64,000 bases of DNA, taken from assembly GCA_937873495.1 (NCBI GenBank), contig CALMXZ010000011.1:248001-312000 (forward strand), read 5' to 3'. Shown piece after piece: positions 6,196 to 42,285 of the stretch (position 1 is the stretch's first letter; each line of letters opens with the position of its first letter). The translations under genes were made by a program, and so were the position numbers. Below the pieces are notes generated by a model, which saw nothing but the letters and a program-made list of their open reading frames with translations, did not search any database and was not told the DNA's origin. The DNA comes from an uncultured Trueperaceae bacterium. Lineage in GTDB: Bacteria > Deinococcota > Deinococci > Deinococcales > Trueperaceae.

Positions 6196-6224
6196 TTGAC
6201 AGTGCCGGTTCCACCGTCTACCAT
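6196..6224 (+). promoter_or_regulatory. Promoter of the leuS leader
   Basis: A perfect -35 TTGACA (6196-6201) is separated by 17 bp from TACCAT (6219-6224). The first ATG follows 6 nt later, which suggests that transcription begins at or next to that ATG. This is the clearest full promoter near leuS. Confidence 0.75.
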
Positions 6225-6230
6225 TCGCCC

Positions 6231-6299
6231 ATGGAAACTGCCTATCCAGGCACGACCTTCGACTACCTATCCCTACGCGGCAGGACGCGCTCCGGCTGA
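6231..6299 (+). CDS. Putative 22-aa leader peptide upstream of leuS
   Basis: An ATG six bases after the -10 box opens a 22-codon frame ending with TGA at 6297-6299. Its middle reads Phe-Asp-Tyr-Leu-Ser-Leu, with both leucines written as CTA (6267-6269 and 6273-6275), a codon that is rare in this GC-rich DNA. It lies 148 bp before leuS, and its last codons overlap one arm of a possible antiterminator. The likely role is as a sensor of charged leucyl-tRNA, in the manner of the classical amino-acid leader peptides. This is inferred from layout only; translation is not shown. Confidence 0.55.
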   Translation: METAYPGTTFDYLSLRGRTRSG

Positions 6300-6349
6300 G
6301 GCTCTCGCCTACGCTCACGCGCGTCGACCCCGGCACGGCAGCCGGGGTC
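6290..6349 (+). promoter_or_regulatory. Putative attenuator: alternative hairpins before leuS
   Basis: A terminator-like stem pairs GACCCCGGC (6326-6334) with GCCGGGGTC (6341-6349) around a 6-nt loop, followed by TCGTCTT. The arm CTCCGGCTG (6290-6298), which covers the leader-peptide stop codon, can instead pair with CAGCCGGGG (6339-6347), nine pairs with one G-U. The two structures exclude each other. A ribosome stalled at the CTA codons would leave 6290-6298 free and favour read-through into leuS. Confidence 0.55.
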
Positions 6350-6446
6350 TCGTCTTGAAGGACGCCGAGCACAAGCCGCAGAGGTTCACGGGAGCGCGGT
6401 GGCCGGAGCCAGGGCGACGAACCTCCCGACCTATACTGGAGAAATC

Positions 6447-8978
6447 ATGACCGACACGATAACGAGCGCCACCGGCCACGCCGAGCGCTACTCACCGGAC
6501 ACCATCGAGAAGAAGTGGCAGCAGCGCTGGCGCGAGCAGGGCATCTACGACATCGACCTCTACGACGCCGGCCGACGCAACTACTACTTCCTGACGATGT
6601 ACCCGTACCCGTCCGGCGACCTGCACATCGGTCACTGGTACGCGGAGACGCCGGCCGACGCAGCGGCGCGCTACTTGCGCATGCGCGGCAACAACGTGCT
6701 CTTCCCCATGGGCTTCGACGCCTTCGGTCTACCGGCCGAGAACGCGGCCGTGAAGGCGGCAAGGGCGGGCGACACGTCCGTCCACCCCGCGAGGCTCACC
6801 GTGGAGCGCATGGCCCGCATGCGCGAGCAGTTCGAGCAGATGGGCGCGATGTTCGACTGGTCCAAGTCACTCGCGACGTGCGATCCGGAGTACTACAAGT
6901 GGAACCAGTGGTTCTTCCTCAAGATGCTCGAGAAGGACCTCGCCTACCGCAAGGAGTCGTTCGTCAACTGGGACCCGGTCGACCAGACCGTCCTCGCCAA
7001 CGAGCAGGTCATCGACGGCCGGGGCGACCGCTCCGGCGCCCTCATCGAGCGGCGCCTCATGCCGCAGTGGCACTTCCGCATCACGCGCTACGCCGACGAG
7101 CTCCTCGACTTCTCGTCGCTCGACTGGCCCGAGCGCGTCGTCGCCATGCAGACGAACTGGATCGGCCGCTCCGAGGGCGCCGAGGTGACGTTCAAGACCG
7201 AGGCCGGGGACGACATCGTGGTGTTCACCACCCGTCCGGACACGCTCTGGGGCGCCACCTTCATGGTCCTGGCTCCCGAGCATCCGCTCGTCGAGAAGCT
7301 CGCGACCCCTGAACGGCGCGACGCCGTGAAGGCGTACGTCGAGCAGGCCTCCCATCGCACCGACCTCGACCGCATGGCGGACACGAAGGAGAAGTCGGGC
7401 GAGTTCCTCGGCGCCTACGCCGTCAACCCCGTGAACGGCGCTCGCATCCCCATCTGGATCGCCGACTACGTGCTCATGGGTTACGGCACCGGCGCCATCA
7501 TGGCCGTGCCGTACGGTGACCAGCGCGACTTCGAGTTCGCGCGCGCCTTCGGGCTCGAGATCGTTCCCGTTGTGCGCCCGGCGGGAGCGGAAGGCGAGCT
7601 CCTGGCCGCCGACCTCGGCGAGGCTTGGGCTGGGCCTGGCGTGATGGTCAACTCCGGCCCGCTCGACGGGCTCGTGCATAACGGCGAGAAGGGCCGCGCC
7701 AGCCCGGCCATCGCCGCCGCCATCGAGTACCTCGAGAGCACCGGCCTCGGCCGCGCCCAGACGACCTACCGCCTCCGCGACTGGCTCATCAGCCGCCAGC
7801 GCTACTGGGGCACGCCCATCCCCGTCGTCTACTGCGACGCCTGCGGCATGGTCCCGGAGAAACTCGAGAACCTGCCCGTGCTGCTGCCGGAGGACGTGGC
7901 CTTCATGCCGACCGGCGAGTCGCCGCTCAAGACGCACGCCGCCTTCCTCGAGACGACCTGCCCCGAGTGCGGCGGCAAGGCGCGTCGCGAGACGGACACC
8001 ATGGACACGTTCATGGACTCGTCCTGGTACTGGTTCAGGTACCTGAGCCCGCACGACGACGAGCGCCCGTTCGACCCGGAGCTGGCGGCGCGCTGGACGC
8101 CGGTCGACACCTACACGGGCGGCATCGAGCACGCCATCCTCCACCTCCTGTACGCGCGCTTCTTCACCAAGGTGCTGCGCGACCTCGGCTTGACGACGTG
8201 CGACGAGCCGTTCAAGCGCCTTCGGAACCAGGGCATGATCCTCGGGGCCGACAACGAGAAGATGTCGAAGTCGCGCGGCAACGTCGTCAACCCCGACGAC
8301 CTGGTCGCGCGGTACGGCGCCGACACGGTGCGGGCCTACCTCATGTTCCTCGGACCGTGGGACCAGGGGGCGCCGTGGAACTACAGCGGCATCGAGGGGC
8401 AAGCACGCTTCCTCGCGCGCGTCTGGAACCTCGTCGTCGACGAGGCGAGGAGCGAGGCCCAGGGCGGCGCCGCTGAGGTCGCCGCCGCGGAGGCTGAGCT
8501 GAAGAGGGCTGTCCACCACGCCGTGAAGGAAGTGACGGAGGACTTCGAGGCGTTCCGCTTCAACACGGCGATCGCCGAGCTCATGACCTTGCAGGGCGCG
8601 CTGCAGAAGGGCCGCTCGGCCGGGCTGGCGGCGAGCGGCACGTGGCGCCATGGCGTCGAGACCCTGCTCCTCATGCTCGCGCCCATAGCGCCGCATATCG
8701 CCGAGGAGCTCTGGCAGCGCCTCGGCAAGCCGGGCTCCGCCCACCTCCAGAGCTGGCCGACGTACGACCCGGCCGCCCTGGTAGCCGACACCGTTCAGTT
8801 GGCCGTGCAGGTGAACGGCAAGCTCAGGGGCCAGGTCGAGGTGCCGGCCGGCGCGGACGACGCCACCGTAGTAGCCGCCGCGCGGGCGGACGCCAACGTG
8901 GCTAAGCACGTCGATGGCAAGGAGATCGTGCGTTCCATCGTCGTGCGCGGCAAGCTCGTCAACTTCGTCGTCAAGTAG
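6447..8978 (+). CDS. leuS: Leucyl-tRNA synthetase
   Basis: This class I synthetase charges tRNA-Leu. The 843-aa protein has HIGH at residues 60-63 inside YPSGDLHIGHW, the CP1 editing domain with TTRPDTLWGATF, and KMSKS at residues 605-609. The C-terminal anticodon and tRNA-binding domains follow. The ATG at 6447 has GGAG at 6438-6441. An in-frame upstream start at 6399 is unlikely because it would add a non-conserved stretch. A TATACT sequence at 6432-6437 could be a second promoter element. The leader peptide and attenuator-like hairpins upstream suggest control by leucine supply. Confidence 0.97.
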   Translation: MTDTITSATGHAERYSPDTIEKKWQQRWREQGIYDIDLYDAGRRNYYFLTMYPYPSGDLHIGHWYAETPADAAARYLRMRGNNVLFPMGFDAFGLPAENAAVKAARAGDTSVHPARLTVERMARMREQFEQMGAMFDWSKSLATCDPEYYKWNQWFFLKMLEKDLAYRKESFVNWDPVDQTVLANEQVIDGRGDRSGALIERRLMPQWHFRITRYADELLDFSSLDWPERVVAMQTNWIGRSEGAEVTFKTEAGDDIVVFTTRPDTLWGATFMVLAPEHPLVEKLATPERRDAVKAYVEQASHRTDLDRMADTKEKSGEFLGAYAVNPVNGARIPIWIADYVLMGYGTGAIMAVPYGDQRDFEFARAFGLEIVPVVRPAGAEGELLAADLGEAWAGPGVMVNSGPLDGLVHNGEKGRASPAIAAAIEYLESTGLGRAQTTYRLRDWLISRQRYWGTPIPVVYCDACGMVPEKLENLPVLLPEDVAFMPTGESPLKTHAAFLETTCPECGGKARRETDTMDTFMDSSWYWFRYLSPHDDERPFDPELAARWTPVDTYTGGIEHAILHLLYARFFTKVLRDLGLTTCDEPFKRLRNQGMILGADNEKMSKSRGNVVNPDDLVARYGADTVRAYLMFLGPWDQGAPWNYSGIEGQARFLARVWNLVVDEARSEAQGGAAEVAAAEAELKRAVHHAVKEVTEDFEAFRFNTAIAELMTLQGALQKGRSAGLAASGTWRHGVETLLLMLAPIAPHIAEELWQRLGKPGSAHLQSWPTYDPAALVADTVQLAVQVNGKLRGQVEVPAGADDATVVAAARADANVAKHVDGKEIVRSIVVRGKLVNFVVK

Positions 8979-40215: not shown

Positions 40216-42225
<2,010 letters not shown>

Positions 42226-42285
42226 CCGGCGCGAGCGAGCGCCATGCCGACGGGCGGTAGAGCGACGCTGACGGCGGGGGTCTGA

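Follow-up and report, generated by a model that had tools for sequence, protein, structure and literature searches.

Leader peptides in the attenuators of Proteobacteria are Shine-Dalgarno-led and usually contain several sensor codons. In a survey published in 2010, leader-peptide systems were known only from Proteobacteria, from Actinobacteria and, as a new addition, from Firmicutes (PMC2965389). Among the systems closest to the one described here, those of leuS in Streptomyces coelicolor and S. avermitilis are predicted leader-peptide attenuators (PMC1262725), and mutation work supports a leaderless attenuator of this type at ilvBNC of Corynebacterium glutamicum (PMC11857589, which cites Morbach et al., 2000). 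In the Deinococcus-Thermus phylum, leaderless expression is common, and -10 motifs located 6-7 bases before ORFs have been established for leaderless genes in Deinococcus radiodurans, in a paper that mentions neither attenuation nor leader peptides (PMC12340547).

In the present study, we analysed a window of 64,000 nucleotides of DNA from an uncultured Trueperaceae bacterium (3.4-Mb genome, G000), in which the region upstream of leuS, bordered on its other side by a divergent dihydrolipoyl dehydrogenase gene (TIGR01350), appears to form an attenuator (Table 1). Judging from the sequence, leuS is very probably controlled by a ribosome-dependent transcription attenuator with a leaderless sensor peptide. 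RNA polymerase would start at or beside the leader ATG, and the ribosome is therefore proposed to initiate directly at the 5' end of the mRNA. With ample charged tRNA-Leu reading CTA, the ribosome would arrive at the stop codon at 6297 and cover the region of the alternative stem, in which case the hairpin at 6326-6349 would stop transcription. When this tRNA is uncharged, the ribosome would wait at 6267 or 6273, a stem approximately 17 bases past the first CTA would be free to form, the terminator would be disfavoured and leuS would be made. From the arrangement of these elements we infer leaderless initiation, stalling, antitermination and a response to leucine.

Table 1. Features of the putative leuS attenuator in the window and leaders of other genes in the same genome
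Feature	Position	Strand	Remarks
-35 element TTGACA	6196..6201	+	6/6 consensus; kept in relatives
-10 element TACCAT	6219..6224	+	4/6 consensus; 17-bp spacer to -35; six bases 5' of leader ATG
Leader ORF METAYPGTTFDYLSLRGRTRSG, then stop	6231..6299	+	Predicted leaderless; ATG 6231, 22 sense codons, TGA 6297-6299
First CTA	6267..6269	+	Predicted sensor codon
Second CTA	6273..6275	+	Predicted sensor codon
Candidate stem 6284-6290/6319-6325, antiterminator position	6284..6325	+	With inner helices; also in L002, L003; abuts terminator
Alternative pairing 6290-6298/6339-6347 of the sequence-only reading	6290..6347	+	Present, -13.5 kcal/mol; not conserved
Predicted terminator hairpin 6326-6334/6341-6349	6326..6349	+	Perfect 9-bp stem, -19.7 kcal/mol
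T-poor tail TCGTCTTG	6350..6357	+	After hairpin
Possible second -10, TATACT	6432..6437	+	leuS-proximal; by inspection; lacks an identifiable -35; comparable sites in several relatives, some free of a leaderless leader
GGAG, Shine-Dalgarno-like site of leuS	6438..6441	+	
leuS, leucine--tRNA ligase	6447..8978	+	Putatively regulated gene; TIGR00396, E 1.2e-295; start ATG 6447
leuC leader MTASTTGGRVSRTRRRLAFVQWRSVVWLAEREA, then stop	L152, G000:C3 near 157238-157276	-	CTA; terminator-like stem; counterparts L184, L197, L206, L216
Nondiscriminating aspS leader MTNALALRTDDNSDSRPLGA, then stop	L154, G000:C7 near 42211-42249		GAT AAT TCG GAT; counterparts L199, L214, L227, L229
pheS leader MRSPLASESFTR, then stop	L297/L239, G000:C9 near 61338		TTT
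ilvB leader MTVSLSGAITSWGLLITSSRGRAG, then stop	L293, G000:C2 near 161285	-	CTA CTA ATT; counterpart L218

Regarding the promoter, which had been called perfect in an earlier reading of the sequence alone (hereafter the sequence-only reading), the -35 element deserves this description, whereas the -10 element does not. TTGACA-17-TACCAT was the single promoter-like site in the 2.5 kb scanned, with 0.1 expected by shuffling. The leader that the same reading had placed 6 nt after the -10 element is present as described, namely, a short ORF of 22 codons between the promoter and leuS, the two leucine codons of which are both CTA. A TANNNT motif approximately 6-7 bases 5' of a start codon, where a ribosome-binding site would be, is the motif of leaderless mRNAs; upstream of leuS, the TANNNT-6-ATG spacing is kept in relatives, being mostly six bases, and the six bases of the window match the spacing in D. 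radiodurans (PMC12340547).

The layout of promoter, leader ATG, CTA and terminator is found again before leuS in each of the five families sampled, a sample in which Deinococcus itself was apparently absent, and the small frame and its CTA codons, the conservation of which the sequence-only reading had proposed to examine by alignment, thereby proved to be shared among relatives. With the promoter and start codon as the only selection criteria, a leader was found at 24 of 30 loci, and CTA accounted for 34 of the 59 leucine codons of these leaders versus 2.5 expected from leuS genes, an enrichment in a codon cognate to the regulated gene, of the kind that characterizes leader-peptide attenuators. 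By our own count, the layout extends to about 26 genera of the five families, the lists behind this count having demanded a CTA for automatically chosen leaders. The exceptions are genera g11 and g16, which are without a leader, and g7, the leader of which is without CTA. Leader peptide sequences differ between most genera, whereas the CTA codon is kept. In 19 of 20 Thermus-type genomes, an 8-codon leader starting with ATG contains a single CTA at codon 6, while the twentieth (L178) has a shorter leader starting with GTG (VRASLRP, then stop) with CTA at codon 5. One relative with the arrangement (L030) has a LeuS that is nearly the same as the Thermus thermophilus enzyme of known structure, matching it with 1273.8 bits over 579 residues, a resemblance that would place the window in the Deinococcus-Thermus phylum. 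Within the genus of the window, L004 has no recognisable leader, and the attenuator of L003 may be altered or broken because its leader frame has no stop codon until past the terminator. One genome (G110) has two leuS matches (L122 and L123), which are accompanied by different CTA leaders. The same scan at 76 leuS loci, nearly all assigned to other phyla and including some with very short flanks that could not be judged, gave three weak candidates in two loci; since none of them was leaderless, the leaderless-leader layout is not general in this sample.

Comparisons of predicted RNA structures among relatives point to the same type of control. A stem with a T-rich tail follows nearly every leader, mostly 15-35 bases past the stop codon. 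The RNA before the terminator, starting 13 bases beyond the first CTA and running up to the 5' arm of the terminator, folds better on average than shuffled sequences (mean z -1.66, 44 leaders), and the RNA near the leader stop pairs with the terminator's 5' arm together with the bases that immediately precede this arm (mean z -1.37, p < 0.05 in 15 of 46), while pairing of the leader end with the 3' arm was at the level of shuffles (mean z -0.04, p < 0.05 in 0 of 46); related sequences are counted as independent in these averages, and the tests are not independent. In the Thermus-type leaders, a CCCTTCCC arm is predicted to pair either with GGGAAGGG just past the leader stop or with the 3' arm of the terminator. 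Stems recur in relatives, where the sequence-only reading had proposed to look for them, although the covariation that it had also proposed to examine could not be assessed in the Thermus-type alignment, which varies too little to be informative. Its antiterminator, which would engage the 3' arm, is probably wrong given the preference of leader ends for the 5' arm, and the predicted pairings support an exclusive antiterminator acting through the 5' arm across relatives. Its central proposal, in which leuS is under translation-dependent attenuation through a leaderless peptide, receives strong support from the comparison, in which promoter-ATG spacing, CTA enrichment, the terminator and the predicted pairing of the leader end with the 5' arm are all found across the phylum.

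The copy in the window is less clear in its details. The terminator-like stem lies between the leader and leuS, as had been read, and is perfect, but its tail is T-poor, whereas most relatives have T-runs, and an automatic terminator scan of the window did not list it. The pairing of the leader end with the 3' arm that had been proposed as the antiterminator exists; however, its stability is below that of the terminator and it is not conserved, and pairing of this type did not significantly exceed shuffles (p 0.066 in the window, 0.51 in L002 and 0.88 in L003). An extended version including the tail (6281-6298/6339-6357) was rejected as an antiterminator because the tail would have to be transcribed first. 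The candidate stem 6284-6290/6319-6325 starts at a distance of 17 bases from the first CTA, close to its starting point in relatives, and ends exactly where the terminator starts. When the leader was occluded, as had also been suggested, with ribosome edges from 6281 to 6287, this stem and the terminator were predicted to form together, with an energy of -44.6 versus -40.0 kcal/mol for the earlier alternative. With the edge at 6289, at which the upstream strand of the stem is masked, the fold gained three pairs at the base of the terminator (6321-6323 with 6351-6353), and competition between the stem and these pairs through this slight overlap is possible according to the model. Pairing of the leader end with the 5' arm was not above shuffles in the window (p 0.40). 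Therefore, the layout of an attenuator is convincing in the window and the precise switch is not, because the stem only abuts the terminator.

This lack of overlap, together with the absence of a leader in genera g11 and g16, speaks for an alternative in which leuS is mainly driven here by the proximal TATACT, giving a nearly leaderless leuS mRNA, with the upstream attenuator as a decaying relic. TATACT-like sites are found just 5' of the leuS start in several relatives, and promoters that lie beside ORFs and consist solely of a -10 element work in D. radiodurans (PMC12340547). On the other hand, a relic does not fit the promoter, both CTA codons and the terminator, which are intact in the window and in L002, or a use of CTA far above the background, and the proximal site has no recognisable -35 element, with TATACTGGAG also being readable as the context of a ribosome-binding site. 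We consider this explanation unlikely; however, the proximal promoter may, from its position, bypass the attenuator, and both promoters may be active.

The attenuator reading is also favoured by other leaders in the same genome. The strict pattern of promoter plus ATG has nine matches genome-wide and none in a reversed control, and pattern searches, the yield of which is probably incomplete, placed leaderless leaders with terminator-like stems before leuC, aspS, ilvB and pheS (Table 1). The codons concerned are rare in 12 genes of the window: CTA constitutes 4 of 433 leucine codons, TTT 0 of 115 Phe codons, AAT 0 of 94 Asn codons, GAT 10 of 233 Asp codons and ATT 1 of 133 ATT plus ATC codons. 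The gene behind the GAT/AAT leader encodes a nondiscriminating aspartate--tRNA(Asn) ligase (TIGR00458), and the end of its leader, CTCGGGG, is complementary to the terminator arm CCCCGAG. Ser-x-Phe leaders resembling that of pheS were found in two families (L231-L234, L237, L238, L240 and L241). When loci of further synthetases (Ile/Val, Trp/Tyr and class II enzymes sharing PF00587) were scanned in five genomes, with 1500-base flanks from which the starts of long genes may escape, the criteria singled out the leuS and pheS leaders alone. Ribosomes may be slowed at rare codons irrespective of supply, and leaderless expression is widespread in the phylum, as described above; the leuS leader may encode a small peptide that is functional or causes arrest, or be a site of general slowing without leucine sensing. 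This is very improbable because CTA is kept while the peptide varies between most genera, and because the rare codons of the other leaders match the amino acid of the gene that follows (TTT for pheS, GAT and AAT for aspS, CTA and ATT for ilvB), which favours cognate sensing over general slowing. As a tentative extension, which we regard as possible rather than probable, the leuS, leuC, ilvB, pheS and aspS leaders may form a leaderless set that senses single rare codons and their tRNAs rather than amino acids, with one rare codon sufficing in some lineages and with the GAT/AAT leader of aspS reporting Asp-tRNA as well as the Asn-tRNA into which the product of this ligase is converted by transamidation.

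Other leaderless short frames were also observed. Two (L181, MCNMHIDP...; L208, MLCNLHTL...) lie directly 5' of D-alanine--D-alanine ligase-like genes, with the family confirmed for L208 only and no terminator noticed, and one (L220, MVVKRLTKRLTTVSTRD, then stop) adjoins, by eye, a LacI-type-like regulator gene.

Although many synthetase genes of Firmicutes are under T-boxes (PMC1262725), control of leuS by a T-box or another known riboswitch is scarcely conceivable because Rfam 15, the T-box model included, gave no family matches at the leuS leader of the window, as the sequence-only reading had supposed for the T-box, or of relatives, apart from a sub-threshold anti-hemB match in L022 that was judged spurious. 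A plasmid collection gave no match.

Text searches of the literature found no description of attenuation in Deinococcus-Thermus, an absence that remains unproven since the paper on transcript starts in D. deserti was outside the search, and leaderless-peptide attenuation thus appears to be undescribed so far in this phylum. If the attenuator reading is true, leaderless translation would serve directly as a sensor of the supply for a synthetase in bacteria where this mode of translation is common, and Thermus thermophilus, which is structurally well studied, would be a test bed for leaderless initiation, single-codon stalling and transcription-translation coupling together. The leuS attenuators of Streptomyces likewise place a leader peptide with leucine codons, an antiterminator and a terminator before leuS and are, as here, predicted only, but they belong to another phylum and a leaderless start is not mentioned in the text of the paper (PMC1262725). 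In C. glutamicum ilvBNC, transcription starts one base from the leader ATG and the terminator is translation-dependent, which resembles the leuS leader, whereas the codons are those for Ile, Val and Leu and the target is a biosynthesis operon of Actinobacteria (PMC11857589). According to the summary in PMC9031893, the speed of translation also reports amino-acid supply in the leaderless poly-Cys short ORFs of mycobacteria (Canestrari et al., 2020), which differ in sensing cysteine through runs of Cys codons. In the leader-peptide attenuators of Proteobacteria, including that of pheST, synthetase genes are likewise set by the position of the ribosome (PMC1262725), but many of the leaders described here carry one rare codon in place of the several sensor codons usual there. 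Since leuS attenuators and leaderless attenuators are both known elsewhere, the present system represents a known mechanism in a new phylum, and its distinctive aspects are leaderless sensing and the choice of a rare codon.
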